From contig JABWCP010000011.1 in NCBI GenBank assembly GCA_013360215.1, positions 1 to 64,000 on the forward strand: a stretch of DNA of 64,000 nucleotides. The letters are read 5' to 3'. Below the pieces are notes generated by a model, which ran no database searches, was not told the DNA's origin, and saw nothing but the letters and a program-made list of their open reading frames with translations. Each line of letters opens with the position of its first letter. Position 1 is the first letter of the stretch. This document shows positions 11,648 through 60,817 of this stretch, one piece after another. The position numbers and the translations under genes are program-made. This DNA comes from a bacterium (lineage in GTDB: Bacteria > CLD3 > SB21).

Positions 11648-11650
11648 ATT

Positions 11651-13270
11651 ATGAACTTAGCAACGCTCCGGCAAAAATTACTTGATTCCTCTCGCCCTAA
11701 GATACTGGTGGTCGGCGATATTATTTTAGACAAATTTATTTGGGGCAGCGTTGATCGCATTTCGCCCGAAGCGCCGGTGCAGGTCGTCAATATGCGCAGA
11801 GAGACTCTGGCGCTGGGTGGCGCAGCGAATGTCGCCCACAATCTTGCGGCGATTGCTTGTGATGTTACGATGTTGGGTGTGATCGGACAGGATGCGCACG
11901 GCGCGGCGCTGAAAGAAGCGCTTGGGCAGGCCGGTATTCATTCCAGTCACGTAGTTACCGATGCGACGCGTCCTACGACCACCAAAACCCGCGTTATGGC
12001 CGGAAGCCAGCACGTCGTCCGTATTGATAACGAAGTCGCGGATGCTGTTTCGCCCGACGTTGAAAATCAAATCATCGCTTCCGTTAAAAAAATTATCGGT
12101 AACGTTGATGCAGTGATTATTTCTGATTATCAAAAAGGCGTTTTGACCGATAAAGTCTTACTCAATACGATACAGTTGGCCCGTCAAGCCGGTGTTCCGA
12201 GTATCGTGGATCCTAAACGCCGTGAATTTTCAGCGTATTCGGGCGCTACGATCATCAAGCCTAATCTCAAAGAAGCTGAAGCGGCCACGGGAAAAAAATT
12301 GACCAATGCGGACGAAGTTTTAAAAGCAGGGCGGTCCTTGGTCAATCAATATCAAACCGATGCGGTGCTGATCACACGCGGCAAGGACGGCATGATGCTC
12401 GTCGAAGCGCGCACGCATACCTCGATTGCGGCTACGGCGCGTGAAGTTTTTGATGTTACGGGTGCCGGTGATACGGTGAGCGCTTTTTTGGGAATGATGT
12501 TGGCCTCAAAAGCTACGCTTGCGGAAGCGGCCGAAGTGGCCAATCTGGCTGCCGGTGTGGCGGTGAGTCGTATGGGCACGGTGACGGTGACGCGGGAAGA
12601 AGTGCTGCATCAGATGGAGCAATCCGCGAGCGGTTCACGAAAAATCCTGACGGCCGGTGAAGCGCGTGTACTCATCGCCGGTATGCGCGGAAAAAAGAAA
12701 ATCGTATTTACCAACGGTTGTTTTGACATTCTCCATGTCGGTCATATCACGTTGCTCAATCAGGCACGGGCACTCGGTGATGCGCTGGTCGTAGGACTTA
12801 ATAGCGATGCTTCCGTGCGGCGACTTAAGGGCGAAAAACGCCCGATCGTTTCGGAGCAGGAACGCGCGCATATCCTTGCGGCGCTGGCATCGGTAGATTA
12901 CGTCGTGTTGTTTGATGAAGATACGCCGTTGGAACTGATACGACAGATTCAGCCGGATATTTTAGTCAAAGGTTCGGACTACACCTTGGATCGCGTTGTC
13001 GGACGCGCGGAAGTGGAGTCGTATGGCGGACGGGTCGCGCTTGTTGATTTGGTCGTCGGGTTTAGTACGACCAATATTGTCGAATCTATTTTGCAGGCCT
13101 ACGGCGTAAAACAAGAAAATAAAACAACGGACGATAAAAATTTGGCCCATGCTGAAAATACCATGCAACGCATCACATCGTTGCAGGATCGGTATGAAGA
13201 AAAAATTGATCGCATTGAAAATAAAAACAAATCCGACGCGCTAAACGCATTGCACCCAAAAAAGAAATAA
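11651..13270 (+). CDS. hldE: Bifunctional heptose-7-phosphate kinase / heptose-1-phosphate adenylyltransferase
   Basis: 539 residues. Residues 1-320 are a PfkB/ribokinase-type kinase (ILVVGDIILDKF, RISPEAPVQV, and GAGDT with catalytic Asp274). Residues 345-485 are a nucleotidyltransferase (FTNGCFDILHVGH at 353-365, KGSDYT, VVGFSTTNIVE). Together they make ADP-D-glycero-beta-D-manno-heptose for the LPS inner core, except for the phosphatase step by GmhB, which is not in the window. The last 53 residues (487-539) are an extra tail, very rich in Lys, Asp and Glu with a heptad-like stretch, not found in the E. coli enzyme as I know it. Two glycosyltransferases follow, one of the heptosyltransferase family, which supports an LPS-core operon. 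Confidence 0.95.
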   Translation: MNLATLRQKLLDSSRPKILVVGDIILDKFIWGSVDRISPEAPVQVVNMRRETLALGGAANVAHNLAAIACDVTMLGVIGQDAHGAALKEALGQAGIHSSHVVTDATRPTTTKTRVMAGSQHVVRIDNEVADAVSPDVENQIIASVKKIIGNVDAVIISDYQKGVLTDKVLLNTIQLARQAGVPSIVDPKRREFSAYSGATIIKPNLKEAEAATGKKLTNADEVLKAGRSLVNQYQTDAVLITRGKDGMMLVEARTHTSIAATAREVFDVTGAGDTVSAFLGMMLASKATLAEAAEVANLAAGVAVSRMGTVTVTREEVLHQMEQSASGSRKILTAGEARVLIAGMRGKKKIVFTNGCFDILHVGHITLLNQARALGDALVVGLNSDASVRRLKGEKRPIVSEQERAHILAALASVDYVVLFDEDTPLELIRQIQPDILVKGSDYTLDRVVGRAEVESYGGRVALVDLVVGFSTTNIVESILQAYGVKQENKTTDDKNLAHAENTMQRITSLQDRYEEKIDRIENKNKSDALNALHPKKK

Positions 13271-13286
13271 TCAGATATTCTAATCT

Positions 13287-14384
13287 ATGAAGTACTCCGA
13301 AATCAAATTTGATTGCCGCTTTTTCCGCGGTGATATTCCGTGTAAACCTAATAAATTGCACGGCAAAATTTGTAATACCTGCGATCAGTATCAACCGATT
13401 TCGCGTCGCATACTTATCATCAAACTGGGCGCTATCGGTGATGTCATTCGTACGACGCCGCTTGTGGTGCGTTATCATAAAATGTTCCCCAATTGCCATG
13501 TATCTTGGATCACGCACACACCCGAGGTCGTACCCTCTTCGATCGTGGACAAAGTTTACAAATTTGATTTCAAATCCGTGTATGCGTTAAGTCATCAACA
13601 CTTTGACATCGCAATCAACTTAGATAAAGATATCGAAGCCTGCGCTTTGCTCAACGATGTGCACGCCAAAGAAAAATTCGGTTTTGGCCTGAAAGACGGG
13701 CATGCGGCGGCAGAAAATCCGCTGGCAGAACATAAGTTTATTACCGGCGCTTTTGACAGCATCTCGCGCGCCAATACTAAAAATTACCTCGAAGAGATTT
13801 TTGAAATATGCGGGCTTACGTTTGAACGTGAGCCCTATATTTTAGATGTGGATAACAAATATCTTTCTGTAGCCGATCCGGTTTTACGTGCCGCGCAGGG
13901 CAAAAAAATCATCGGACTCAATACCGGTTGTGGAGACCGATGGCTCACGCGATTGTGGCCGGAGGCGTATTGGGTCGAATTGATCCAGATTCTTCAGATG
14001 AATGGTTTTTTTCCTCTGCTTCTGGGCGGGCCTGCAGAAGATGCGATGAACAAAAACTACGCTAAAATGACCGGTGCGTATTATCCGGGAACATTTACAT
14101 TGCAGGAATTTATCGCGTTGTCTTCTCGCTGTGATGTAGTGCTGACAGCGGTTTCCATGATGATGCACATTGCGATCGCAACGCGGGTACCGCTGGTACT
14201 TTTTAATAATATTTTTAATCCGCATGAATTCGAATTGTACGATAACGGTATCATGGTTCAGCCGGCTACCGGGTGCGATTGTTATTTCGGCAATACCTGT
14301 TCCCGCACGCATCACTGCATGCTTGATATTCCTGTAGATTCGGTATATCAGGCGATTGTTCGACTGAAAGACCGCAAAGCATGA
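13287..14384 (+). CDS. Glycosyltransferase family 9 (heptosyltransferase-like) with Cys4 N-terminus
   Basis: 365 residues. The GT9 core starts at about residue 43 (ILIIKLGAIGDVIRTTPLV, a typical first strand of the GT-B fold) and continues with CHVSWITHTPEV, IGLNTGCGDRW and ALSSRCDVVLTAVSMMMHIA, where the nucleotide-sugar site lies. It is expected to transfer heptose from ADP-heptose to the LPS inner core. Upstream of the core are four Cys (10, 19, 29, 32) with a C-x2-C end, and another cluster (GCDCYFGNTCSRTHHC) sits near the C-terminus; such Cys sets suggest a bound metal. It lies 16 bases after hldE and overlaps the next gene by 4 (ATGA). Confidence 0.88.
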   Translation: MKYSEIKFDCRFFRGDIPCKPNKLHGKICNTCDQYQPISRRILIIKLGAIGDVIRTTPLVVRYHKMFPNCHVSWITHTPEVVPSSIVDKVYKFDFKSVYALSHQHFDIAINLDKDIEACALLNDVHAKEKFGFGLKDGHAAAENPLAEHKFITGAFDSISRANTKNYLEEIFEICGLTFEREPYILDVDNKYLSVADPVLRAAQGKKIIGLNTGCGDRWLTRLWPEAYWVELIQILQMNGFFPLLLGGPAEDAMNKNYAKMTGAYYPGTFTLQEFIALSSRCDVVLTAVSMMMHIAIATRVPLVLFNNIFNPHEFELYDNGIMVQPATGCDCYFGNTCSRTHHCMLDIPVDSVYQAIVRLKDRKA

Positions 14385-32346: not shown

Positions 32347-33072
32347 TTACTCCGCGTCTTTTACGACAAACGCTTTGGGAAACGTTTTTTTCAATTCATC
32401 GGCTTTCGCGCGGTCCTCAAACCCGCCGATCCATACCTTGTACATACCGTCGGTATGGGAAATTTTAGAGCGTACTGATTGTTTGGATTCGGCTTCCGTT
32501 TTTGCTTTTTGCGCTGCCGCTTCAGTAGAAAAAGATCCGATTTGAAGCCAGAAAAGTTCTTTACCGGAAATCTTCGGCGTAGCCATATCTTTCATTTCAT
32601 GGATCCACGCATCGGGATAACCGTTTTGTATTAGTTTCTGTTTGGCGGCATCGGCTTCTTCCCGTGTCATAAAATCGCCGACCCAGACGCGCCACTTGCC
32701 GTCGGTTTTGTCATCCAAAACATACACGGCTTTTTTCCATGTGGTATCGGCGGAGAGCGATGTATAATTTTTCTGTGCGTTGGAGGGACTGCCTGCAAAC
32801 ACCTGTACGCGGAAACGCGCCTGGATCGTGGGCTCGTAAGTTTTATAAGTGATCGAATCGGGCGCAGGCGTCATCGGGCTTACCGTATCCGGGGGAGTGA
32901 TCATATCATTGGGTAGTTTTTCATCGGCCAAAAAATCTAATTTTTCTGATTTATTTTTTTCCGACGTCTCAAGCGCTTTGGCAAAGTCGGCATCGGATTT
33001 AGCCGCAGGCTGCGTGGTTTTACAAGAAACTACCGTAAGCACAGCCGCAATGGTCACAATCATCAAACGCAT
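32347..33072 (-). CDS. SPOR-domain lipoprotein
   Basis: 241 residues. Signal peptide with lipobox (VVSC, Cys17), then a linker rich in Lys, Ser, Pro and Asp. Two tandem SPOR domains follow: RFRVQVFAGSPSNAQKNYTS...WRVWVGDFMTREEADAAKQKL (about 88-160) and LFWLQIGSFSTEAAAQKAK...YKVWIGGFEDRAKADELKK (about 172-238). SPOR domains bind peptidoglycan lacking stem peptides, chiefly at the division site. It precedes ftsE by 3 bases, so the two are probably made together. Fixed to a membrane by its lipid, it may be a septal marker or an anchor. Confidence 0.9.
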   Translation of the reverse strand: MRLMIVTIAAVLTVVSCKTTQPAAKSDADFAKALETSEKNKSEKLDFLADEKLPNDMITPPDTVSPMTPAPDSITYKTYEPTIQARFRVQVFAGSPSNAQKNYTSLSADTTWKKAVYVLDDKTDGKWRVWVGDFMTREEADAAKQKLIQNGYPDAWIHEMKDMATPKISGKELFWLQIGSFSTEAAAQKAKTEAESKQSVRSKISHTDGMYKVWIGGFEDRAKADELKKTFPKAFVVKDAE

Positions 33073-34689: not shown

Positions 34690-35301
34690 ATGGAAATTGT
34701 TTTAGCAACAAGTAATCCCAAAAAAGTAAAAGAAATGAATGCTATTATGAGCGGGATGCAAGTCCGGTTCAGACGGCTGAATGAATTTTCTGATGTACCG
34801 GAAATCATTGAGGACGGATTGACGTTTAAGGCCAATGCATTAAAAAAAGCGCACGTGATATTTGAGCATACGGGGATAATGGCGCTCGCGGATGACTCGG
34901 GTATCGAAGTGGATGCGCTGGGCGGAAAACCCGGTGTTTTTTCGGCACGGTATGCCGGCCCGTCACAAGACGATCGTGCTAATCTGGAAAAATTGTTACG
35001 GGATACAGAGCATGTGCCGGATGAAAAGCGTACCGCGCGCTTTCATTGCGTCATCGCGCTGGTGTGGGGTCAAGCCGGTAATGCGATGGAAAAAACATTT
35101 CACGGTGTGATGGAAGGCGCGCTTCTGCGTGCGCCGCGCGGAACACATGGTTTTGGCTATGATCCTATTTTTATGGTGCCTCAATACGATGGAAAAGCCG
35201 CCGCGGAATTAGATCCTGATCTTAAAAATAAAATCAGTCATCGCGGTCGAGCGTTGGAACAGTTTAAAACATTTTTTGAAAAAGAATTTTCTATACGATG
35301 A
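34690..35301 (+). CDS. rdgB: Non-canonical purine NTP pyrophosphatase
   Basis: 203 residues from ATG 34690, chosen because the family starts with MEIVLATSNPKKVKEMN and a GGAG lies 7 bases upstream. Key motifs: GLTFKANALKKA, ALADDSGIEVDALGGKPGVFSARYAG (metal and base recognition), HGFGYDPIF and SHRGRALEQF. It hydrolyses XTP and ITP/dITP to the monophosphates, cleaning the nucleotide pool. Divergent from the HPt operon. Overlaps the next gene by 4 bases (ATGA). Confidence 0.95.
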   Translation: MEIVLATSNPKKVKEMNAIMSGMQVRFRRLNEFSDVPEIIEDGLTFKANALKKAHVIFEHTGIMALADDSGIEVDALGGKPGVFSARYAGPSQDDRANLEKLLRDTEHVPDEKRTARFHCVIALVWGQAGNAMEKTFHGVMEGALLRAPRGTHGFGYDPIFMVPQYDGKAAAELDPDLKNKISHRGRALEQFKTFFEKEFSIR

Positions 35302-36077
35302 AAAATAACCTTTTTAAAATTACATCCGTTCTAGCGGTGACGCTCATCGGTATCGTGGTGAGCTGCAAAAATGATCAAACAAAAAATTCGGTCAACCTAT
35401 CGGCCGATTCAAACATCGTAAAAAACGATACAATGTTGCTATCCAAAGTAATGCCTAAAGGGATTATTACACGATTGCCGGGTTCAGATTCGGTTGTAGC
35501 GCTGACATTGGATGCCTGTGAGTCACTGATCCCTTCTTATTTTGACACTACGATTTTAAACTATTTGTTGCTTGAGCGTATTCCGTTTACTCTGTTTATG
35601 ACGGGCAATTTTGCCGTACGAAATCGGGAGACATTACGTATGTTGGCGGGTTATGAATGGATAGATATTCAAAATCATTCCTACCATCATCACCTGCACA
35701 TGGAGTCGCTGAGTGACAGTGCGGTTGTAGCCGAAGTGAGATCGGCGGAAGATACTATTTTTTCGATCACGGGCCGACGAACAAAGTTGTTTCGTTTTCC
35801 GGGCGGAAATTACGATACGCTGACATTAAATCGTGTCGAACACTTGGGCTATCGCGTCGTCCACTGGAGTTTCGAAAGTGGGGATCCGGACAAAAAAATT
35901 ACGCCACAAAAGATGATTCCGTGGGTTACATCCAAAACACGACCGGGGGGTATTTTGATTTTTCATATCAACGGCCGCGGGTATGCTACAGGCAAGGCTT
36001 TACCGGAAATCGTCACGCATCTGCGTAACACCGGTTATCACTTTGCGAAGCTTAATGACTACACCTTCGCCGAATAA
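35298..36077 (+). CDS. Polysaccharide deacetylase-family lipoprotein
   Basis: 259 residues. Signal peptide with VVSC lipobox (Cys23). The NodB homology domain spans about 65-255: ALTLDACES in place of the TFDD motif, NHSYHHHLH carrying the metal-binding His pair, LFRFPGGNYD and ILIFHINGRG. It probably removes acetyl groups from a cell-wall or surface glycan in the periplasm. Motif 1 keeps one Asp (LDAC) as in a known subset of these enzymes. Translation is coupled to rdgB (ATGA), with no obvious functional link. Substrate unknown. Confidence 0.87.
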   Translation: MKNNLFKITSVLAVTLIGIVVSCKNDQTKNSVNLSADSNIVKNDTMLLSKVMPKGIITRLPGSDSVVALTLDACESLIPSYFDTTILNYLLLERIPFTLFMTGNFAVRNRETLRMLAGYEWIDIQNHSYHHHLHMESLSDSAVVAEVRSAEDTIFSITGRRTKLFRFPGGNYDTLTLNRVEHLGYRVVHWSFESGDPDKKITPQKMIPWVTSKTRPGGILIFHINGRGYATGKALPEIVTHLRNTGYHFAKLNDYTFAE

Positions 36078-45502: not shown

Positions 45503-45976
45503 CTATTTTTTAGGACCGATGCGCGTAAGTAATAAACCGGTGGCTACGGTGTCTCCGTCTTGGTCACGGATATCAACCCGTACGGAGATGTCGCGCGTTT
45601 CGGCTGTCGCCACGATCTCGGTTTGGCATTCTCCAACAAGTGTACCCCGTGCCTTTTTTTGATAATCCACCGCGATATTTTTTACGATAAAACGCGCATC
45701 CTCCGGTAATCCGCATACCAACGCAAGATTGCCGGTGTATTCCGCGAGGTTAGCAAGAGCAATGGCATGTATCGAACGCAGATGGTTGCGCACTTTACGC
45801 CGATCCCGTAATAAAACACGCGCATAACCGGGTTTGAGTTCTAAAACGCGGGCTGATATGCTCCCGGTGTAGGGTATGTAGCGGTTGACAAAACAACTGA
45901 ATATCAAGGCACCCAATGGAAGTTTATTCAAAAATAACCATTGACGGTGTATAGCGTTGCGTCCTTCAGTTTGCAT
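45503..45976 (-). CDS. DUF4442 hotdog-fold thioesterase-like protein
   Basis: 157 residues. The hotdog fold is suggested by YIPYTGSISARVLELKPGYA, the central helix after RNHLRSIHAIALANLAEYTG and a closing VDIRDQDGDTVATGLLL. RNHLRSIHA is the active-site region of the PaaI/DUF4442 branch, with an Asn-His and an acidic residue in NLAEYTG as candidate catalytic groups. It probably cleaves an acyl-CoA; the substrate is unknown. A lone minus-strand gene, 112 bases upstream of the propeller kinase start. Confidence 0.85.
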   Translation of the reverse strand: MQTEGRNAIHRQWLFLNKLPLGALIFSCFVNRYIPYTGSISARVLELKPGYARVLLRDRRKVRNHLRSIHAIALANLAEYTGNLALVCGLPEDARFIVKNIAVDYQKKARGTLVGECQTEIVATAETRDISVRVDIRDQDGDTVATGLLLTRIGPKK

Positions 45977-46113: not shown

Positions 46114-47703
46114 ATGAAGAAAATCGATTTTTTAGATTGGTCACTTGACGCTTGGTTTTTAGCGTTATGTTTGATGTTGTGTTTAACATGTATGGCCTTC
46201 AGTTGTTCATTGAACGCACAGGAAAAAGACACGGTTATTTTGCGCGACTCCGCTGTAACCGAGGGCGACAGCGTGGACACGTTTAATGCCACAGTACAGA
46301 ATGTGGTGAATGAAACTCGACGTATCGTCAAACGACGCGCCCAAGCCGCATCGCGTTTTCTGAACGAACGCTACATCATCGTCATTGACCCAGGCCATGG
46401 CGGCACAAAGTACATAGACAAAGGGAATTCGGCCAAATTGGATGGCATCGAATACCACGAAAAAGACATGATGTTTGAATATGCACAGCTAGTGGAGAAA
46501 AAATTAGCCGCGGCAGGATATGAAGGACTGCGAAAAACGAAAGAAGCGGCGGATGATTCGTCGCTATCCATTTACACGCGTGCCGGTCGTGCGGCCAAAT
46601 TCGGAAAAGATGCAGGCAAAAAAGTTCTTTTTGTCAGCCTCCACTGGAATAATTTTGAAGATCCTTCGGTCGGCGGTACGGAGATATATATCAAAGAAAG
46701 TCAAAATTACAAAAGTCGTAAATTGGCGGAATTTCTGCGCGGTTCGATGAGTCATATTTTACAAATGCACGGTGCCGGTCAAAATATTACGGGTATCGTC
46801 GAACGCGATTATCGTGTGCTGCGCGAAATGGATACCGGTGTTTTGATCGAAATCGGGTACGCAAGCAACCCCGGCGACCTCCGAAAGATGCTGTCACAAA
46901 AAGACGAGATTGCCACCGCTATTGTCAATGGCATTGATGCGTTTGCGGAATATATGCAGGAACAAGAGGCGCAAAAACAAATGCCCAATGATGATCCCAA
47001 AAAAGCGGCTGAGGATGCCAAGTTAGCCGAAATCCCGAGCATCCCGTTTGGATGGTCCTGGCGCAAAAAAGATATTAGCGCCGATGTGGATCATCTGATG
47101 AAACGTTACGACGGGATGTACGAAAAGGTCACCACTGAAAAAGAAATTTACCTGACGTTTGACTGCGGTTGGGAAAACGGCTATACGCCGAAAATATTAG
47201 ATGTGCTGAAAGCCAACGAAGTCAAGGCCGCGTTTTTCATTACCGGCGGATATTTGAAGTCGGCAGAGGATGTCGTGGCGCGTATGGTGCAGGAAGGTCA
47301 TATCGTCGGCAATCATTCTGTCAACCACCTCAGCATGCCGCAGCTCAAAGTGCGGGAGATGAAGCGGGAGATTCTTGGTTTAGAGCAGGATTTTTATGAT
47401 CTTTTTGAAATGAAAATGAATTATTTCCGTCCGCCCAGCGGCGAATGGAGTCGTCGTTCGCTGGCCGTGACCCAGGCGCTGGGATATAAGACCGTATTTT
47501 GGTCGTTTGCGTACGATGATTGGGATGTGCAGGCACAACATGGGCGGGATTATGCATACAAAAAAATCACCCAAAATGTTCGCCCCGGCGTCATTATTCT
47601 GTTGCATGCGGTATCAAAGGATAATTTTGAAGCATTAGACGCCGTGATCAAAGATCTGCGCAAAGACGGTTATGTATTTAAGAGTTTGGATGAAATCAAA
47701 TAA
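46114..47703 (+). CDS. Fusion of N-acetylmuramoyl-L-alanine amidase (CwlD-like) and PdaA-like deacetylase
   Basis: 529 residues, with an N-terminal export signal ending in an AFSC site that may be a lipobox (Cys31). Residues 87-283 are an Amidase_3 domain: IDPGHGG (His95), HEKDM (Glu116), SLHWNN (His177) as zinc ligands, and catalytic Glu246 in VLIEIGYASNP. A charged linker (284-308) leads to residues 308-528, which follow spore-type PdaA rather than ordinary chitin deacetylases: PFGWSW, YLTFDCGWENGYTPKILDVL with a single Asp350, EGHIVGNHSVNH (His401, His405), FRPPSGEWS, TVFWSFAYDDWDV and ILLHAVSKDN (His498). CwlD removes the peptide from muramic acid, then PdaA deacetylates it and closes the delta-lactam. 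Both in one exported protein is unusual. ubiE follows after 16 bases. Confidence 0.92.
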   Translation: MKKIDFLDWSLDAWFLALCLMLCLTCMAFSCSLNAQEKDTVILRDSAVTEGDSVDTFNATVQNVVNETRRIVKRRAQAASRFLNERYIIVIDPGHGGTKYIDKGNSAKLDGIEYHEKDMMFEYAQLVEKKLAAAGYEGLRKTKEAADDSSLSIYTRAGRAAKFGKDAGKKVLFVSLHWNNFEDPSVGGTEIYIKESQNYKSRKLAEFLRGSMSHILQMHGAGQNITGIVERDYRVLREMDTGVLIEIGYASNPGDLRKMLSQKDEIATAIVNGIDAFAEYMQEQEAQKQMPNDDPKKAAEDAKLAEIPSIPFGWSWRKKDISADVDHLMKRYDGMYEKVTTEKEIYLTFDCGWENGYTPKILDVLKANEVKAAFFITGGYLKSAEDVVARMVQEGHIVGNHSVNHLSMPQLKVREMKREILGLEQDFYDLFEMKMNYFRPPSGEWSRRSLAVTQALGYKTVFWSFAYDDWDVQAQHGRDYAYKKITQNVRPGVIILLHAVSKDNFEALDAVIKDLRKDGYVFKSLDEIK

Positions 47704-47719
47704 AGAACGATGAGAGCGA

Positions 47720-48460
47720 ATGGGTACACATGATCAAACGGCGGATGCCGTACTCCCCAAACCGGAAGAAAAAAAACAATACGTACGCGCCATGTTTGAC
47801 GGCGTGGCGTCAAAGTATGACTTTCTCAATCATTTATTGAGTCTCGGTATTGATATTTATTGGCGCCGTCGTGCCCTGAAACTGATCAATTTTTCGATGA
47901 ATCCGAAATTGCTGGATTTAGCCACCGGCACGGGCGATGTGGCGATCATGGCTATACGTATGGGTGCGCAACATGTGTACGGTGTGGATTTATCGGAAGG
48001 GATGTTGGCCTACGGGCGAAAAAAAATCGAAAAAGAAAAAATGACGGATGCGATCGATATGATCTGTGGTGAGGGCGAACGCATACCGATGGAAGATGCG
48101 TGTGTGGACGCTTCGACGATCGCTTTCGGCATTCGTAATGTCGTGGATATCCCGCAAACGCTGCGCGAAATGGCGCGTGTGACCAAAACATCGGGCATGA
48201 TCGTGGTGCTCGAGTTTTCCCAACCGCAATGGCCGGTGATGAAGCAGTTGTACCAATTCTACTTTACGCAAGTTCTTCCGCGCATTGGTTCTCTCTTTTC
48301 CAAAGATAAAAAGGCGTATCATTATTTGCCGGCGTCGGTGATGCGTTTCCCGGCACGTGACGAGTTTGCTCACATGATGGAACAAGCCGGCTATACCAAC
48401 GTTCGTCATTTTGATATGACGCTGGGTATCGTGACAGTTTATTCCGGCATCAAATTGTAA
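47720..48460 (+). CDS. ubiE: Demethylmenaquinone / ubiquinone C-methyltransferase
   Basis: 246 residues. The family's motifs are complete: MFDGVASKYDFLNHLLSLGI, LLDLATGTGDVAI (SAM site), VYGVDLSEGML, VDASTIAFGIRNVVD and LEFSQPQW, with GIVTVYSGIK at the C-terminus. It methylates demethylmenaquinone to menaquinone in the cytoplasm at the membrane surface. In FCB bacteria menaquinone is the expected quinone, so menG/ubiE activity on that substrate is likely. Co-transcription with the fusion enzyme upstream is suggested by the 16-base gap; no other quinone gene is near. Confidence 0.94.
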   Translation: MGTHDQTADAVLPKPEEKKQYVRAMFDGVASKYDFLNHLLSLGIDIYWRRRALKLINFSMNPKLLDLATGTGDVAIMAIRMGAQHVYGVDLSEGMLAYGRKKIEKEKMTDAIDMICGEGERIPMEDACVDASTIAFGIRNVVDIPQTLREMARVTKTSGMIVVLEFSQPQWPVMKQLYQFYFTQVLPRIGSLFSKDKKAYHYLPASVMRFPARDEFAHMMEQAGYTNVRHFDMTLGIVTVYSGIKL

Positions 48461-48480
48461 ACGTTTTTTTGGAGAACACT

Positions 48481-49110
48481 ATGCTGATCGAAAAAAAAGT
48501 AACAGAATTTTTAGATGAATTGGCCTCGTCGGCGCCTGCGCCCGGGGGAGGCAGTGTAGCCGCGTTGGCCGCGGCTCTGGGGACGGCACTCACAGCGATG
48601 GTCGCGCAGCTTACGATCGGAAAAAAGAAATATGCCGATGTCGAACCTATCATGCAGGAGATCAGCCGTAAAGCGGAAACCCTGCGCCGTGATGCAACAG
48701 CCCTGATTGATAAAGATACGATTGCATTTAATGCCGTGATGGCCGCATTTGCCATGCCCAAAGAAACCGACGAACAAAAACAAGCGCGCGCGTCGGCCAT
48801 CGAAAGTGCGACACAAAACGCAACGCGTATTCCTCTGGATGTTATGAAGTTGTGCGCAGCCGCAATCGGGTTGACCCATACGGTCGTTACGCGCGGCAAT
48901 ACTAACGCCCTCAGCGACGGCGGCGTCGGTGCGCTGATGCTGCAGGCCGCTTGCCGCGGTGCTTATTATAATGTGATGATCAATTTGGGCGGACTCAAGG
49001 ATGCGGCATTTGTATCGGCGACCCAATCGGAAGCGCAAATTACCATGAAAACCGTGGATGATGCGGCGCTTGCGATCAGTCAACACGTAGGCAATCAGTT
49101 CGGCGTATGA
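48481..49110 (+). CDS. fchA: Cyclodeaminase/cyclohydrolase family protein
   Basis: 209 residues from ATG 48481, behind TTGGAGAACACT. The FTCD_C fold is recognised by FLDELASSAPAPGGGSVAAL, then AAALGTALTAMVAQLTIG and NALSDGGVGALMLQAAC, close to formiminotetrahydrofolate cyclodeaminase and methenyl-THF cyclohydrolase FchA. It would convert 5-formimino-THF to 5,10-methenyl-THF and ammonia. A link with hutI at 9 kb (formiminoglutamate route) is possible but not shown. It overlaps the next small gene by ATGA. Confidence 0.86.
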   Translation: MLIEKKVTEFLDELASSAPAPGGGSVAALAAALGTALTAMVAQLTIGKKKYADVEPIMQEISRKAETLRRDATALIDKDTIAFNAVMAAFAMPKETDEQKQARASAIESATQNATRIPLDVMKLCAAAIGLTHTVVTRGNTNALSDGGVGALMLQAACRGAYYNVMINLGGLKDAAFVSATQSEAQITMKTVDDAALAISQHVGNQFGV

Positions 49111-49256
49111 ATTTAGATACGATACTTTTTTTTATTGTCGTTGTCGGACTGTTGTCGTTTACGTTTTTGATTTATATCGGTCGTAAAAGAAAAAAAAGTA
49201 TAGGCGCGCGTAAAGAACGCATCAAAAACCAATGGCGTAACCGCCTTGAGGAATGA
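49107..49256 (+). CDS. 49-residue single-pass membrane protein
   Basis: A small gene of 49 codons plus stop. The residues are a short start MNLDTILF, a strongly hydrophobic helix (about 6-24) and a basic tail with KRKK, RKER and RNR groups. Its ATG overlaps the stop of the cyclodeaminase gene (ATGA) and its own stop overlaps the ATG of the phosphatase gene in the same way, so it sits exactly in the operon's reading flow. The charge pattern predicts the C-terminus in the cytoplasm. No family recognised. It may anchor or regulate the phosphatase; this is inference. Confidence 0.78.
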   Translation: MNLDTILFFIVVVGLLSFTFLIYIGRKRKKSIGARKERIKNQWRNRLEE

Positions 49257-51019
49257 GTATGGAACCGATGGACAAGCCGCTGGATAAACAATCCCTCATC
49301 AAAGGCGAGGTGCAGGATGACGTGGATCGCAAACTGCTGGAACTGTCTGCGCTTTTTGAAATAAGTCAGTTGCTCAATTCTTCCCTCAATCTGACTTCGA
49401 TCGTAGATAATATCTTGCTCTCACCGATGGGCCGCATGATGATCAATAAAGGTCTTTTTTTGCTGCATCGCGGTGATCATCAGTATGAAATATTTACCCT
49501 CAAAGGTTTATCCCGCGATCTGATCGGAAAAAAAATAAGCATCACCGAGATACCGCAAAAATCTTTTCTCCTCGATGAGGTTTCCGACGCGCCGTATCCG
49601 TGGCTTTCGTTTTTTACGCAGTACGACATGAAGCTGATCGTGCCGATCGTTTTGCGCAACGATATGCTTGGGTTGGTCGCTTTCGGAAAAAAATTGATCG
49701 GTGGTCCGTACATCGAAAGCGAGATCGAATTTTTATCGTCCATCGCCAATATTGCCGCCACCAGCATTCAAAACGGTATTGTGTTCGAAGAGTTACGATC
49801 GGTCAATGCGCGCTTAGATAAAAAAATACAAGAACTGCACACCCTTTTTGACATCGGCAAGGAACTCAACGCCACGTTAGATGCGCAGAAGGTCGTCAAA
49901 TTGCTTTCCTACGGGCTTATGGGTGAAATGATGGTTAATCGTTTCGCGATTTTGGTGCGTCGCCATGACGGTGTCGAATATGCCGAAAAACGGGGCCTTG
50001 CCCGATTGCAGCTCGATGACACCCAGACGTCGCTGGTATTCAATTATTCGCAACCGGCGGTGGTGACGGATGACGAGCACAGCGAACTGCAGCACGCTCT
50101 TCAAAATCAGGATATTATCGCAATTGTTCCGATGCGAAGCCAGGATCGCACAAAAGGTGTTCTGCTTCTTGGCCCTAAAATTTCCGGAAAAGGATTTACT
50201 AAAGAAGAATTAGATTTTGTTTTTACGCTGGGTAATCAGGCGATGATTTCGCTTGAAAACGCATGGCTTTTCGAAGATTCACTGGAGCGTAAACGACTGG
50301 AAGAGGAACTCGAACTTGCACGCAAAATTCAGATGGGCTTGTTACCTAAAGATTTTCCAAAACTGAACAATTTTGAAGTGTACGGTTTGAATATTTCATC
50401 CAAACAAGTCGGTGGCGATTACTTTGATGTGCTCAAAATCGATGAAACGCATTATATCATAGCGATCGCGGATGTGAGCGGTAAAGGCGTACCGGCTTCG
50501 CTTTTGATGAGCAATGTGCAGGCCAGTTTGCTGGCGCTCAGTACCGAAGTCAGTGATTTTAGCAAGCTTGTCTATAAGGTAAATAATATCATTTACGCGA
50601 ATACCGATTCCGAAAAATTTATCACGTTTTTTGGCGGTGTACTGGATATCGAAAAACGTACGTTTACATATGTCAATGCAGGGCACAATCCGCCGTATTG
50701 GCGGAAAACGGATGGGACGTTACATACACTGGATAAAGGCGGTTTACTTTTGGGTATGTTGCCCGACATGCCGTATGAACAAGAAACGATCACGCTTTCA
50801 CCCGGTGAAGGCATCGTCATGTTTACCGATGGCGTGACGGAAGCGATGAACGAAAAGTTGGATCAATATGACGAATCGCGCCTTGAAGCATTGATCAAGA
50901 CGCATCCGAAGATAACGGCCAAAGAATGTACGGAAAAAATTGCCGCTGAAGTCAAAGCCTTTGCCGGTGCGGCGCCGCAGTCAGACGATATCACCGTTGT
51001 TATCCTCCATGCTATTTAA
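49253..51019 (+). CDS. GAF-domain PP2C/SpoIIE-type serine phosphatase (RsbU-like)
   Basis: 588 residues. Two GAF-type sensor regions (about 28-185 and 195-345) with a coiled segment EELRSVNARLDKKIQELHTL between them. A linker with RKRLEEELELARKIQMGLLP leads to the phosphatase domain (about 390-588): SKQVGGDYFDVL, IAIADVSGKGVPASLLMSN, FVNAGHNPP in the form YVNAGHNPPYW, MFTDGVTEAMN and the closing PQSDDITVVIL, which hold the Asp residues for Mn2+/Mg2+. It should dephosphorylate an anti-sigma antagonist and so control a sigma factor by partner switching. No RsbV or RsbW gene lies close. The sigma-factor gene at 55 kb has no obvious link. Confidence 0.9.
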   Translation: MSMEPMDKPLDKQSLIKGEVQDDVDRKLLELSALFEISQLLNSSLNLTSIVDNILLSPMGRMMINKGLFLLHRGDHQYEIFTLKGLSRDLIGKKISITEIPQKSFLLDEVSDAPYPWLSFFTQYDMKLIVPIVLRNDMLGLVAFGKKLIGGPYIESEIEFLSSIANIAATSIQNGIVFEELRSVNARLDKKIQELHTLFDIGKELNATLDAQKVVKLLSYGLMGEMMVNRFAILVRRHDGVEYAEKRGLARLQLDDTQTSLVFNYSQPAVVTDDEHSELQHALQNQDIIAIVPMRSQDRTKGVLLLGPKISGKGFTKEELDFVFTLGNQAMISLENAWLFEDSLERKRLEEELELARKIQMGLLPKDFPKLNNFEVYGLNISSKQVGGDYFDVLKIDETHYIIAIADVSGKGVPASLLMSNVQASLLALSTEVSDFSKLVYKVNNIIYANTDSEKFITFFGGVLDIEKRTFTYVNAGHNPPYWRKTDGTLHTLDKGGLLLGMLPDMPYEQETITLSPGEGIVMFTDGVTEAMNEKLDQYDESRLEALIKTHPKITAKECTEKIAAEVKAFAGAAPQSDDITVVILHAI

Positions 51020-55053: not shown

Positions 55054-55647
55054 ATGTTTCTCCGTCGTAAGGAAATAAATATAGACGAATTTCTGCGCCC
55101 CGGATCGCGCGGGCACGGCTATGTTGTTAATTTTCATCGTAAATACTTCGATGTGTTCCGCGGTACAGATTTGGAAAATCAGGACGCATTCATCAATGAG
55201 GTATATATCGGGTTATCGTCTATTCGCGAAGAGAGCATTCGCGAAAAAGCCGATCATTATCTGATGAAAGCCGTTTATTTTCGTTGCTGGCGTTTATTTG
55301 AAGATAGTAAAGTATACAAACAGTCCGAAGTACCGGCGAGCCGTGCGCAACGCGACAATGAAGATGATGATGCCGTAACGCGTGCGCCCTCGACGACCCC
55401 GCTACCTGATTCACCTCTTTTAGCTCAAGATTTGCTTGAACATATCCATCGTTTTCGTATGACATTGAATTCGCGAGAGATCGTGATACTCAATGGGCTG
55501 ATTGATGAACTGACTGTTGCTGAAATTGCTCGAAAAGCCGGAATCACAATAAATTATGCAGGCGTACTGATACACAGAGTACGTGAAGCGTTACATGTTT
55601 ATTTAGAAGTTATCGGGTATTTCAAAAAAAATAAAAAAAAGTTGTAA
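55054..55647 (+). CDS. RNA polymerase sigma-70-family sigma factor, divergent
   Basis: 197 residues. The N-terminal half fits a diverged region 2 (ENQDAFINEVYIGLSSIREE, DHYLMKAVYFRCWRLFEDSK), followed by an acidic linker (EDDDA...TTPLPD). Region 4 is clear at about 136-190: FRMTLNSREIVILNGLIDEL, TVAEIARKAGITINYAGVLI, HRVREALHVYL. This is the ECF layout without a region 3. The next gene encodes a one-pass membrane protein, as for anti-sigma factors. It lies 3 bases after the M28 gene, so expression is tied to the TonB-peptidase pair. Target promoters unknown. Confidence 0.75.
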   Translation: MFLRRKEINIDEFLRPGSRGHGYVVNFHRKYFDVFRGTDLENQDAFINEVYIGLSSIREESIREKADHYLMKAVYFRCWRLFEDSKVYKQSEVPASRAQRDNEDDDAVTRAPSTTPLPDSPLLAQDLLEHIHRFRMTLNSREIVILNGLIDELTVAEIARKAGITINYAGVLIHRVREALHVYLEVIGYFKKNKKKL

Positions 55648-55713
55648 GTATTTTATTGCTATCCGTACTTACTGTTTGTGAGGAGTTAGTTTAGTGCAAA
55701 AAAAGGCCGTATT

Positions 55714-56763
55714 ATGACAGATGATGAGAAAAAAATAAATCTAGATTTCTTGGACCCGTTACGTCAGATTCCGTCCGTGATATGGAATGCCGAGAAGATG
55801 AGCCGTTGTATTCACGGGTACTCCGTTATGAGTAAATATGAACGGGATTGGTTTGATACGCAGATTCGTGAAGAAGATTCCGCCCGTAATCTTTTTGAAC
55901 AAGTATTTGATGATGATATTCTTTTGGATCCGTCCTATCGCACAGAATCTCCGCTCATACAAAAAATGAGCAAAGGAATCCAAATACGCTGTGCGACGGG
56001 ACTGACATTGCAAATAGATCAATCCACGGCGTTGATTTCTGAAGCGGGTCCGACGTGGATCGGCCAAAGCGCATTAATTACGTCGGTAGGGTGGTCCTTA
56101 CGGATTCTTGAAGTACAAACAGGGTTAAGGTTACCATGCGCATCGCTATCTGAACAATTTTTTAGCGAACTTAAAGTTTGTAGTGTTTCGCTTGCCGATA
56201 AAGAAAATTTAGTTCGCACAGATAGGCCTGTATGGTATATTTGGTCGGCCGCTGCAACGATTGTCGTGATGATCATGGCCGGTATATGGTGGCTGCAGAA
56301 GCCGACTGAAGTTTTAACGACGGATACGAAGCCTGATATTTCCAAAGATACACTCGTGGTGCCTCAACATCACCTCACGGAACAACCCCAAGTCGCATTG
56401 CCTCTGCAGCAAACACCAAAGCCGAACAAAGAAAAATTATTGGCAGCGCATTTCGAACCGAATGCCGTTCTTGAAAATTTTATCGGACGTACATACCGCG
56501 CGGAGGTACGTATAGAAATAATCCAGCCCTCTTCTGGGGATACGCTTCGCGGGCCTTTGGTTTTTACTTGGAAAAAATCGGATCCTAATGTAAATGTTAC
56601 GGTAAATATTTTAAACAATCGTAATGCTTCGGTATGGGAAGCTAATACGAAAGAAGATCAATTGTCGTATAACGGTGTATTGACACCGGGATTGTATTAT
56701 TGGATTATCAAGTCCGGTGATGTGCGTCTTGATGTACGAAAATTTTATATTCCTGTTCAGTAA
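55714..56763 (+). CDS. One-pass membrane protein beside a sigma factor; candidate anti-sigma
   Basis: 349 residues. Not recognised as a known family. Residues 1-170 are cytoplasmic, helical and charged; a membrane helix lies at about 173-193 (VWYIWSAAATIVVMIMAGIW); a Pro/Gln/Thr linker follows; and residues 264-349 form a periplasmic beta domain (IIQPSSGDTLRGPLVFTWKK, VLTPGLYYWIIKSG) of the type often seen in surface-sensing proteins. There is no zinc-finger of the usual anti-sigma kind. It follows the sigma gene by 66 bases. Its stop overlaps by 7 bases with that of the convergent TPR-CHAT gene. Role as regulator of the sigma factor is inference from position and topology. Confidence 0.7.
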   Translation: MTDDEKKINLDFLDPLRQIPSVIWNAEKMSRCIHGYSVMSKYERDWFDTQIREEDSARNLFEQVFDDDILLDPSYRTESPLIQKMSKGIQIRCATGLTLQIDQSTALISEAGPTWIGQSALITSVGWSLRILEVQTGLRLPCASLSEQFFSELKVCSVSLADKENLVRTDRPVWYIWSAAATIVVMIMAGIWWLQKPTEVLTTDTKPDISKDTLVVPQHHLTEQPQVALPLQQTPKPNKEKLLAAHFEPNAVLENFIGRTYRAEVRIEIIQPSSGDTLRGPLVFTWKKSDPNVNVTVNILNNRNASVWEANTKEDQLSYNGVLTPGLYYWIIKSGDVRLDVRKFYIPVQ

Positions 56764-59700
56764 CCGATCAAAACAAACGCGCCCCAATCGCCGGGGTAGG
56801 ATGTGTGTTGTTGTGCTATCCATCGTTTTTGTGTTTTTTGCAGCGCCAGGCTCAGGTTTTTTTCAGTAAAGACATTACGATAAAACTCTGTCATAAATTC
56901 GGCCGTCAAACGGTCATCTACCGGCCAGAGTGACACAAGCACGTGTCTTGCTCCGGCGTAAATGAAGCCCCGTGTTAATCCGATCACCCCTTCGCCTTTT
57001 TCGATTTTTCCCAGCGCCGTTTTGCAGGCACTGAGTGTTACCAAGTGGGCTTTGAGACGGAGGTTGTATATTTCTCCGGCATATAATATATCTTCTTTCA
57101 CGTCAACCGAGTCGTCGGAGTAAAGAGCAATGCCTGATAATTTCGGATTCACTTCATTTATAAAACCGTGACTGGCCACGTGGATATAACCGTAATGGAT
57201 CAAGGTGTCATTTAATACTTGTTTTTTTGTTGCCGCACGGTGGACTATGATTTTAGAATCCAATTTTCTTTGGGAAAAGAGCGATTTAATTTGTTTTACC
57301 TCTTGAATACTGTAGGGTAAAGTCGGAAAACCTTCCCCCTTTTGCTGGATTTGTCGTGAAGAGGTTTTTGTTGAGTCGTAAAATTTATATGATTGAATAT
57401 CGCCGCTCGTTACGCTGTCATCAAATACCGGTGCAATGCCATAGAATGAATTGGGTGCGATTGTAGAATGGGATGATAATAGCATATCTGCTGACATTAA
57501 ATACTGTATCGAATAATCCTCAGATAGATAACGAGCACGCGTATTTTGTTTATCACCTTCGGTAAGCTTTGCTTTCATTAATAATGTTTCAAACGGTAAA
57601 TAATATAACATGCCGTCCGGAATAATAATTAGTGGGGTTCCTATGGCTATTGATTCCAACGAAGGTTTAACCCATTGATTATAAAATGCTATTGAATACC
57701 TCTCATACGAAGAAATATCAAGATCAGTAAGTCCTTGACGTATATGTCTAATAGTGTATTCAAAGGTACTGTCTTTGCTTTGAGCAATCATGGTTTTAGT
57801 TTTATCCGTCAATCGGATAATCATAATCAAGGAATCACCGACAAAATAATCCAAAACGACACCCGGCCTGATTTTCAGATGATTTTGAATATCTGAAATA
57901 TTCGGCACGGTGATATCATATTTTAACTGATAGTAAGCAGGGTTTGTTTTTTCAATCGACTGCTGCAGAGTTTCGTATCTGCTTTTTAGGTCGAAAAGTA
58001 TTTTAGCTGTGTATGATTGTTCGTCTGAATTATTGAATTTACTGCTCTGTGGCGATGGTGTGTATTTTGTTTCATAGAAAGCAATTTGAGTTTTTAACTC
58101 GCGTTCTAAGCGGAGAATCGAATCGGAAATTGTAGCAAAATTCCGAACCTGGAGTTCATGTAGAGCTTCACGTAATGTCCCGGCTTTACTGCGTTGTGAC
58201 ATAACAAATGCGCGATCAATCCATTTATTGTCGGAAGTAATATAATAGGCTTCAGAGATAGTTTTTAATGCCGATTCATAGATTATTTTGGCTTTGGAAC
58301 CTAAAAAGATTTTGGATCCTTCAAGGCGGTAACCTTGACGGAGAATATCTATCCATGATGCCGTAAGGTTATAAACATTATAGGATTCTTCTAAGTACAA
58401 CAATTTCTTTGTTCGATCGTATTGCTTTTTAAGAAGCCGTGCTTTTTGAGCGAGGATAACAATTGTACCGGTTTCAGGGCGGATCAATTGCAGAGGAGGA
58501 TTTTCACTAATTGAGGAGTCAGAAAATGCTGGTAATTGTGTTATGAGAGCATTCTGAGTGTAACGTAATGCAACTTCTACATTGTTATTTTGCTCAGCGA
58601 TTTCAGCGCGATGCATCCACATCTCAGCTATTTCAGGATTTTTTGAACCAAAGGCCTTGTTTGCCATTTCGATTGCTGCAGAAAAAAGTGAGTCAGACAG
58701 GAAAAATTCTTTTCTTTTCCCATGGATAATCGCTAGGTAAGTCATGTTTTTAGCGACTTCGCCGTGAATTTTATATTTTTTTTTATTGACTGCAAAAGCT
58801 GAATCATAATAAAATAGTGCTGAATCATTATCTCCCAGTTCGCGATAAATATTTCCAATATTACCAAGGCTCGCGGCAGCGGCAATAGAATTTATCCCGA
58901 ATATATTTTGGCGAACTTGTAATGCTCTTGACTGATAGTCCAGCGCTGAACGATAGTTTTGGCGATTGTAGTTGAGGATGGCCAAATCTACATAACTCCC
59001 AGCCACATCCGGATGATTTGTCCCAAAAGCTCGGATACGAGACGATAGCGCTTTGGCATGATAATCTGCAGATTTTTCGACATCTCCCATAATGTCATAA
59101 CAGATGCCGAGATTGTCGTATATTAAGGCGGTACGTGGATGCTCATCACCCAGTGTTTTGATGCGAATGGTCAAAGCTTTTTTATAGTACTCTTCTGCCG
59201 ATGTATAATCTCCAAGCCTCCTATAGATGACACCAATGTTGATATAGCTTGAGGCTACCGAATTGTGAAATGGGCCAGAAGTAGATATTCGTATTCGCAG
59301 CGCCTCTTTAGAGTAAAATAACGCACTATCAAATTTGGATTTGTCGGAGTATATAATACCAATCATATTATAAATAGCGGCAACATCAAAATGGTCATAA
59401 CCAAGTTTCGCAATGCGAATTTGTAAAACAGAACGATTTGCCTCTAATGATGAATCTAAATCACCTTTACTCCACAAAGTAATAGTTATAGCACTCAAAA
59501 CTTTGGCGTACGACAAGTTATCTGAGCCTAGGTTTTGTTTAATTTGCTCTAAAGCCATATAGCCTTTTGTGAGAGCTAAATCATATCTGGCCACTGTGCG
59601 GTGTGTTTCAATTATTTCTGAAGCGATGTCGGCAATACGCTCCCAACATTGATGTGATTTATATGCCTCATAAGATTGGTTTAAGTAAATGAGAGCACTG

Positions 59701-59852
59701 TCATATTTCAGAACTTTCAAAAACTGTTGTGCTGTAGTGTAGTCGCGTTGAGCCTGAAGCGTATCTTTAAGGGTTTGTGAAAACGAATAGTCTGTAGGAC
59801 AATGTAAAAACAATATTGACCATGATAGAAATAATAATGGTAGCTTATTCAT
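56757..59852 (-). CDS. Exported TPR-CHAT cysteine protease
   Basis: 1031 residues from ATG 59852, chosen because GGGGAACGC precedes it and it overlaps the upstream gene by ATGA; the frame upstream has no ribosome site. The N-terminus is a signal peptide (MNKLPLLFLSWSILFLHC) that may also be a lipobox-like site. Tetratricopeptide repeats of about 42 residues, of the kind DYTSAEEYYKKALTIR and YRSALDYQSRALQVR, fill roughly residues 40-450. A helical region follows, then the CHAT domain (about 690-1031): His895 in HVASHGFINE and Cys943 in TLSACKTALG, the catalytic pair of the caspase-like CHAT family, followed by GLTRGFIYAGARHVLVSLWP. Both residues are intact. TPRs probably bind a substrate or partner. 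Last gene of the S9 peptidase-YheT unit. Confidence 0.9.
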   Translation of the reverse strand: MNKLPLLFLSWSILFLHCPTDYSFSQTLKDTLQAQRDYTTAQQFLKVLKYDSALIYLNQSYEAYKSHQCWERIADIASEIIETHRTVARYDLALTKGYMALEQIKQNLGSDNLSYAKVLSAITITLWSKGDLDSSLEANRSVLQIRIAKLGYDHFDVAAIYNMIGIIYSDKSKFDSALFYSKEALRIRISTSGPFHNSVASSYINIGVIYRRLGDYTSAEEYYKKALTIRIKTLGDEHPRTALIYDNLGICYDIMGDVEKSADYHAKALSSRIRAFGTNHPDVAGSYVDLAILNYNRQNYRSALDYQSRALQVRQNIFGINSIAAAASLGNIGNIYRELGDNDSALFYYDSAFAVNKKKYKIHGEVAKNMTYLAIIHGKRKEFFLSDSLFSAAIEMANKAFGSKNPEIAEMWMHRAEIAEQNNNVEVALRYTQNALITQLPAFSDSSISENPPLQLIRPETGTIVILAQKARLLKKQYDRTKKLLYLEESYNVYNLTASWIDILRQGYRLEGSKIFLGSKAKIIYESALKTISEAYYITSDNKWIDRAFVMSQRSKAGTLREALHELQVRNFATISDSILRLERELKTQIAFYETKYTPSPQSSKFNNSDEQSYTAKILFDLKSRYETLQQSIEKTNPAYYQLKYDITVPNISDIQNHLKIRPGVVLDYFVGDSLIMIIRLTDKTKTMIAQSKDSTFEYTIRHIRQGLTDLDISSYERYSIAFYNQWVKPSLESIAIGTPLIIIPDGMLYYLPFETLLMKAKLTEGDKQNTRARYLSEDYSIQYLMSADMLLSSHSTIAPNSFYGIAPVFDDSVTSGDIQSYKFYDSTKTSSRQIQQKGEGFPTLPYSIQEVKQIKSLFSQRKLDSKIIVHRAATKKQVLNDTLIHYGYIHVASHGFINEVNPKLSGIALYSDDSVDVKEDILYAGEIYNLRLKAHLVTLSACKTALGKIEKGEGVIGLTRGFIYAGARHVLVSLWPVDDRLTAEFMTEFYRNVFTEKNLSLALQKTQKRWIAQQHTSYPGDWGAFVLIGY

Positions 59853-60817
59853 GCGTTCCCCTTTACAAATGCTATAGCCCTCTCTTCCGACCAATAATAA
59901 CCTTTTTTAGAAGATGCAGGAAAACCGACATGTCCTCCGTCCCGAGGCATTTCTAAAGTAATGTGAGTATGGTGTTGTATCTGTGCGATCGGAAAACACG
60001 ATGGGCCTAAAAACGGATCGTTTTGTGCATTGACCAGTAATGTCGGTATCGCAATGTTATCCAAAAACGTCACGGCACTGCACCGGGACCAATAATCTTC
60101 AGCGTCGCGAAAACCATGTATCGGTGCCGTATAGCGGTCATCAAATTGGCGAAATGTTTTAATTTCTGAAAATCCTGTGTCACTGATTTGTCCGGGAAAC
60201 ATCGTTGATTTCAATTTTATTTTTTCATGAAGCATGCGCAAAAAACGACGCATGTAGATGCGGCAGGCAGGAGACTCCATTGTTAATGCCGATGACTTGA
60301 GGTCCACAGGAACTGAAAATGTGACCGCTTTACGGATAGCCGGATGGACTTGATTTCCCTTGTCACCGAGATATTTGAGGGTCATGTTTCCACCCAAACT
60401 AAATCCGATCAATACAATTTCCGTATATCCTCGGCTGAGTCCATGATGTATGACGACTTCTAAGTCTTCGGTGGCTCCGCTGTGGTATGAACGCAGCAAA
60501 CGATTCGATTCACCGCTGCATCCGCGATAATTCCAGGCGAGAACATTCCAACCTTCTTCATGAAATCGTTTGGCCATGCCGCGCACGTAAGTGCGCGAGG
60601 TATTCCCCTCAAGACCATGCGATAGGATTGCCAGTTTGGTTGATGTGTGCGTAGCGAGCCAATCCAAATCCAGAAAATCATCATCCGGTGTCGTTATGCG
60701 TTCACGCGTAAATGAAACGTCATGTACTTTCCGAAATAACGTCGGAAAAATCGTTTGCACATGGCCGTTAAAAAGAAGTAATGGCGCCCGGTATGTTGAT
60801 GCTTCGATTAAAGGCAT
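59849..60817 (-). CDS. YheT-family alpha/beta hydrolase
   Basis: 322 residues from ATG 60817, chosen because AGAAGGACT precedes it and the family starts with a short MPLIEAS-like stretch. Sequence signs: APLLLFNGHVQTIFPTLFRK, AILSHGLEGNTSRTYVRGMA (oxyanion region), nucleophile Ser in IGFSLGGNMTLKYLG, Asp in NAQNDPFLGPS and His in DGGHVGFP. These are carboxylesterases with unknown natural substrate. The stop overlaps the ATG of the TPR-CHAT gene (ATGA), so the two are translated together; a functional link is plausible but unproven. Confidence 0.88.
   Translation of the reverse strand: MPLIEASTYRAPLLLFNGHVQTIFPTLFRKVHDVSFTRERITTPDDDFLDLDWLATHTSTKLAILSHGLEGNTSRTYVRGMAKRFHEEGWNVLAWNYRGCSGESNRLLRSYHSGATEDLEVVIHHGLSRGYTEIVLIGFSLGGNMTLKYLGDKGNQVHPAIRKAVTFSVPVDLKSSALTMESPACRIYMRRFLRMLHEKIKLKSTMFPGQISDTGFSEIKTFRQFDDRYTAPIHGFRDAEDYWSRCSAVTFLDNIAIPTLLVNAQNDPFLGPSCFPIAQIQHHTHITLEMPRDGGHVGFPASSKKGYYWSEERAIAFVKGNA

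Follow-up and report, generated by a model that had tools for sequence, protein, structure and literature searches.

The window analysed here, a stretch of 64,000 nucleotides, belongs to a bacterial genome of 3.7 Mb in 56 contigs whose phylum is sampled by nine genomes. On its forward strand, a 529-residue open reading frame encodes a polypeptide in which a zinc amidase domain is fused to a deacetylase domain of PdaA type; the features of this gene and its neighbourhood are as follows.

45503..45976, minus strand: DUF4442 neighbour, divergently oriented (conserved in three genera)
46114..47703, plus strand: coding sequence of the amidase-PdaA fusion, 529 aa (Pfam domains; orthologues in 7/7 family genomes examined)
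46144..46212, plus strand: hydrophobic N-terminal segment, residues 11-33, a signal peptide or membrane anchor (direct sequence reading; helix 9-39 in the model)
46378..46938, plus strand: Amidase_3 domain, residues 89-275 (Pfam; PDB fold matches to amidases)
46396..46398, plus strand: zinc ligand His95 (invariant; aligns with known amidases)
46459..46461, plus strand: zinc ligand Glu116 (invariant; aligns with known amidases)
46642..46644, plus strand: zinc ligand His177 (invariant; aligns with known amidases)
46849..46851, plus strand: catalytic Glu246 (invariant; aligns with known amidases)
46954..47067, plus strand: inter-domain linker, residues 281-318 (found in 7/7 fusions)
47068..47697, plus strand: PdaA-type CE4 deacetylase domain, residues 319-528 (TIGR02884 at 284 bits, clade, fold)
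47155..47181, plus strand: motif 1, TFDCGWENG, residues 348-356 (Asp350 corresponds to the PdaA base Asp73, Cys351 to PdaA Asn74)
47314..47328, plus strand: metal-binding motif H-S-V-N-H (His401 and His405 correspond to PdaA His124 and His128)
47428..47442, plus strand: motif RPPSG (Arg439 corresponds to PdaA Arg163; Ser442 stands at the place of PdaA Arg166)
47605..47607, plus strand: His498, counterpart of the PdaA acid His222
47720..48460, plus strand: ubiE methyltransferase, downstream (gene context comparison)
48469..49110, plus strand: stand-alone FTCD_C (cyclodeaminase-like) gene immediately downstream of ubiE (shared by two genera)
49253..51019, plus strand: GAF-PP2C (SpoIIE-domain) phosphatase (conserved neighbour)

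Both domains are matched by Pfam far above the curated cutoffs, Amidase_3 (PF01520) over residues 89-275 with 101 bits (cutoff 27) and Polysacc_deac_1 (PF01522) over residues 339-461 with 120 bits (cutoff 23.1); the same Pfam search returned neither a match to PF04748 (Polysacc_deac_2) nor a wall-binding module. The hydrophobic N-terminus suggests that the protein is exported. An earlier, sequence-only reading of this DNA had described a two-domain fusion at 46114-47703 with intact amidase residues and a single-Asp TFD-GxENGY motif, and all of this is borne out: the frame is exact; in alignments, His95, Glu116, His177 and Glu246 fall on the zinc ligands and the catalytic Glu of Bacillota amidases, with no variation across seven homologues; and the motif is present as TFDCGWENGY in the window protein and as TFDCGYENG, once TFDNGYENG, in the homologues. 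Asp350, His401, His405, Arg439 and His498 of the deacetylase half are likewise invariant among seven homologues. In the AlphaFold model of the fusion (mean pLDDT 83, pTM 0.55), each domain taken by itself is trustworthy but their mutual arrangement is not.

In Bacillus, the peptide is removed by CwlD, and PdaA, which works on peptide-free strands only, carries out deacetylation and cyclization; the two enzymes suffice for lactam formation in vitro and, when co-expressed, in the periplasm of E. coli (PMC10116595). The amidase half of the fusion shares with CwlD (TIGR02883; PDB 7rag) the Amidase_3 fold, the zinc ligands and the catalytic Glu, and it would share the role of CwlD, the removal of the stem peptide before PdaA acts. 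Unlike CwlD, the amidase is part of a fusion; although TIGR02883 is its best NCBIfam match, the match is weak (66.2 bits against a cutoff of 221.55), and in a tree of 11 CwlD and 20 other amidase rows the domain forms a long branch of its own (support 100), separate from the CwlD clade. In a fold search, C. difficile CwlD, Rv3717 and others came within a narrow range. The sub-cutoff score and the tree placement thus reject CwlD orthology, so that of the CwlD role formerly ascribed to the first half it is the amidase function that stays plausible; by its sequence, this half is a divergent Amidase_3 of its own kind and likely has amidase function. Three more Amidase_3 genes are present in the source genome, one of them AmiA/AmiC-like.

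The deacetylase half is most closely matched by PdaA. Among NCBIfam models it scores 281.9 bits to PdaA (TIGR02884), 160.4 to PdaB, 113.5 to NodB and 106.8 to YlxY (TIGR02873), which places PdaA as the best CE4 model, 121 bits above the next. The curated TIGR02884 cutoff of 298 bits is nevertheless missed (281.9 bits, 284.3 in the genome search, 260.9-288.8 for the homologues) and by the curated rule the domain is no TIGR02884 member. A quick tree of 74 CE4 domains, which had no bootstraps and whose outgroups were long-branched, puts it on the PdaA side (SH-aLRT 96), with the PdaAs of an unrelated small-genome family, f38, as its sister group (SH-aLRT 86), a join that may move; two Bacillota CE4 rows of the outgroup were considered as PdaB and rejected, as they are GlcNAc-deacetylase-like. 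Bacillota PdaA conserves residues at 34 positions that are rare among the remaining CE4 enzymes; of these, the fusions retain 15-17, the f38 proteins 16-19, PdaA2-like paralogues 9-15 and all other CE4 enzymes 0-5. The closest fold match, B. subtilis PdaA, has a TM of 0.91 on the target, an rmsd of 1.3 Å and 43% identity. Sequence comparison thus supports an assignment of this half to the PdaA clade, although the curated cutoff is narrowly missed.

With B. subtilis PdaA (TIGR02884; PDB 1w17, 1w1a, 1ny1), the fusion has in common the clade, the fold, the YLTFD-x-GYENG and HSxxH motifs, the base Asp73 (the base of deacetylation; PMC10116595, PMC12444981), the acid His222, whose mutation abolishes cyclization in both PdaA and SwsB (PMC12444981), and the lack of the second Asp of TFDD, at the place of which the window protein has Cys351. 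The missing second Asp is, according to a review, a mark of MurNAc deacetylases (PMC5855634). The fusion differs from PdaA in its attached amidase, its sub-cutoff score and two residues conserved in Bacillota PdaA: the place of Asn74 is taken by Cys351 in six of the seven fusions and by Asn in one, and that of Arg166 by Ser442 in all seven; its organism, moreover, lacks Spo0A and SleB/CwlJ. The view that the second half is of PdaA type, for which the sequence-only reading had called an HMM comparison decisive, holds as to best model, clade and fold, and has to be qualified by the sub-cutoff score and by the replacement of Asn74 and Arg166. The muramic-delta-lactam cyclase SwsB/YlxY (TIGR02873) shares the CE4 fold and the His needed for cyclization; SwsB, however, has Asn for the base Asp and cyclizes only (PMC12444981), whereas in the fusion Asp350 is retained and the TIGR02873 score is 107 bits, compared with 282 for PdaA. 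Agrobacterium MdaA (PMC10838918) is another CE4 enzyme of a Gram-negative, with a MurNAc-type sugar substrate and a Cys substituted for the metal Asp, a likeness taken from the published description of Cys for the second Asp and not from a sequence alignment; unlike the fusion, MdaA is unfused and acts on peptide-bearing anhydroMurNAc ends (PMC10838918). Elsewhere in the window, a second CE4 protein with a lipoprotein-like N-terminus and the motif TLDACES is encoded at 35298-36077 (plus strand); its best NCBIfam match is PdaB, below cutoff at 116 bits, and TFDAC motifs like its own occur in three other sampled genomes.

The fusion is present, in single copy, in each of the seven genomes examined of the source family, and the family members are 51-62% identical over their full length, encoded in one open frame with no internal stops. 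An assembly chimera or frameshift join is ruled out by this common occurrence. Both domains are under strong purifying selection: comparisons of close relatives give dN/dS values of 0.02-0.08 for each, while the N-terminal segment has 0.11-0.51, and both activities are therefore being kept. Invariant catalytic residues and low dN/dS also rule out an inactive deacetylase serving as a binding module.

Outside the family, the fusion is missing from both sister-family genomes of the phylum and was unseen in some 780 further sampled genomes. None was found outside the source family among 386 genomes sampled across the domain (PdaA matches at E <= 1e-50), in 399 sampled Bacillota genomes or in the genomes sampled from the phylum of f38; these searches cover samples of genomes, and their limits of 1e-50 and 1e-75 would miss distant fusions. 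A search for the domain pair mapped on relationships, as the sequence-only reading had advised, thus finds the fusion, among sampled genomes, in the source family only, and a scan of genome contigs gave four loci, all in that family. In the 386-genome sample, strong PdaA matches are limited to the source family, where they are always fused, to f38, where they are unfused, and to a family (f54) with PdaA-rich relatives that is taken as Bacillota and from whose phylum the 399 genomes were drawn. A 593-residue frame in one genome (G484) was rejected as a further fusion, being actually an unfused PdaA of 379 residues. Unfused PdaAs with the motif TFDEGYEAG, in which Glu stands at the place of Asn74, are found at two loci (L089, 7222-8184; L088, 3682-4719) in a family whose genomes measure 1.2-1.4 Mb, and one of them exceeds the PdaA cutoff with 303 bits. 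Recent uptake of a Bacillota gene is unsupported, as the nearest sister is the f38 PdaA, outside the Bacillota PdaA branch. PdaA-like enzymes are mentioned by a review in the non-sporulating Rhizobium leguminosarum (PMC11555704); in the open-access literature searched, neither a fusion of this kind nor muramic-delta-lactam outside spores is reported, which does not prove that they are absent.

The organism had been described as a Gram-negative with LPS genes and no sporulation genes in view, and both parts of that description are upheld. An HldE-like protein (PfkB and cytidylyltransferase) and a heptosyltransferase-family (GT9) protein are encoded at 11651-14384; none of the nine whole genomes of the phylum has Spo0A or SleB/CwlJ, in a search whose controls were positive in B. 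subtilis, and cortex synthesis of the known type is therefore excluded. The "SpoIIE" domain at 49253-51019 was rejected as a sign of sporulation, since it is part of the GAF-PP2C phosphatase. DUF4442, ubiE, FTCD_C and GAF-PP2C genes flank the fusion in two genera, and partly in a third, whose contig ends; a fourth genus has other neighbours, yet there too the second gene downstream is a GAF-PP2C gene, so that this phosphatase lies near the fusion in both of the differing contexts (49253-51019 in the window; 11068-13554 at locus L056). The context differs between genera and no dedicated operon was found; neither is there a degradative cluster around the gene, and the neighbours give no functional clue to the wall. 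Further downstream, two neighbouring genes for proteins of 197 and 349 residues without Pfam match (55054-56763, plus strand) are followed by a TPR-CHAT protein of 1045 residues (56757-59894, minus strand).

Among Gram-negatives, the closest precedent is E. coli SddA (YibQ, PF04748), a periplasmic enzyme that works on amidase products: it removes the acetyl group from GlcNAc in strands denuded by amidases and has ties to the septal amidases (PMC12440217). SddA differs from the fusion in its family, its GlcNAc specificity and its unfused state, and it is absent where the fusion is present. PF04748 proteins occur in exactly the two genomes of the phylum that are devoid of the fusion (L140, 6231-7352, and L141, 5360-6451, in genomes G008 and G007) and in none of the seven that carry it; as the complementarity represents one split on the tree, it is a hint. 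Both proteins have a hydrophobic N-terminal segment, with the motif IDDFG in one genome and IDNFG (DN for DD) in the other, and no EnvC-like neighbour was recognised. Denuded glycan is read by SPOR domains (PMC6895207); a SPOR-domain protein, a possible reader, is encoded in the window at 32347-33072 (minus strand).

The explanation we favour, to which we give roughly an even chance, is that of a bifunctional periplasmic amidase and PdaA-type enzyme of a non-sporulating Gram-negative, probably lactam-forming, at work in wall remodelling. The N-terminal zinc amidase would strip the stem peptide from MurNAc, the C-terminal domain would then take the N-acetyl group off the bared MurNAc and, most likely, close the muramic acid to muramic-delta-lactam. 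As PdaA is inactive on peptide-bearing strands, fusing both domains would couple the second reaction to its obligatory substrate. Amidase and MurNAc-deacetylase activities are what the conserved residues suggest; closure of the lactam is plausible but the least certain step, because His222 also serves deacetylation and sequence proves no cyclization, and conserved catalytic residues cannot separate deacetylation alone from deacetylation with cyclization. Against this explanation count the sub-cutoff PdaA score, the replacement of Asn74 and Arg166, an amidase that is not CwlD and the absence of the lactam-reading enzymes SleB/CwlJ. The likeliest site of action would be denuded glycan arising from wall remodelling or cell separation and not an endospore cortex.

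An amidase and deacetylase acting without ring closure, leaving denuded glycan with MurN and possibly GlcN that would tune septal amidases, SPOR-protein binding or lytic transglycosylases much as is supposed of SddA in E. coli, is a less likely but still serious candidate. It draws on the SddA precedent in a Gram-negative (PMC12440217), on the restriction of PF04748 to genomes where the fusion is absent, and on the Ser at the place of Arg166 and the Cys at that of Asn74, which could have cost the cyclase activity; SddA, however, comes from another family and acts on GlcNAc, His498 is kept, and the nearest characterised relatives, BsPdaA and CdPdaA1, both cyclize. The Cys that replaces the second Asp, as it also does in MdaA (PMC10838918), and that is found as Cys351 in six of the seven fusions, would also suit a deacetylase of anhydroMurNAc or turnover fragments, with the amidase trimming chain ends in recycling. 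This appears improbable in view of the placement of the deacetylase half in the PdaA clade (in a tree that holds no MdaA), of the one homologue that has Asn, as PdaA does, and of the activity of MdaA on peptide-bearing strands.

That the fusion marks the wall of cysts or of resting cells of another kind, an idea prompted by the sporulation role of the PdaA family in Bacillota, has little probability given that Spo0A and SleB/CwlJ, the genes to which this argument extends, are absent from the nine genomes; the cyst-like or dormant-cell mark proposed earlier is thus unsupported, the distribution hinting rather at amidase-linked wall remodelling. Slighter still is the chance of a secreted enzyme degrading the peptidoglycan of other bacteria as food: an exported amidase and deacetylase could attack a foreign wall, and four of the relatives are environmental MAGs, but Pfam finds no wall-binding module, the single-copy gene is kept in every family genome examined and its surroundings hold no degradative cluster. 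Vegetative remodelling of denuded glycan would therefore be favoured over cysts or dormancy, on account of the missing Spo0A, SleB and CwlJ, the SddA precedent, the complementarity with PF04748 and the SPOR-domain protein.

Muramic-delta-lactam has been described as unique to endospores (PMC12444981), and a conserved amidase-PdaA fusion in bacteria devoid of the spore genes searched makes that endospore-only status testable. The fusion presents a variant of a known enzyme pair in an unexpected setting, with lactam formation plausible but unproven. With both steps of the pathway naturally coupled, it is useful for learning how PdaA can make an amide with no input of energy, and it would connect the spore pathway with a new field, the deacetylation of denuded glycan and of MurNAc in Gram-negatives (SddA, MdaA). 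The finding suggests, without proving it, that the "spore-only" muramic-lactam mark may also exist in non-spore-formers; if true, the mark would label amidase-denuded glycan more generally. With a confidence somewhat short of even, these non-sporulating Gram-negatives may, across their lineage, make muramic-delta-lactam in their ordinary wall by means of a coupled two-domain enzyme, in place of the SddA-type deacetylases of denuded strands.
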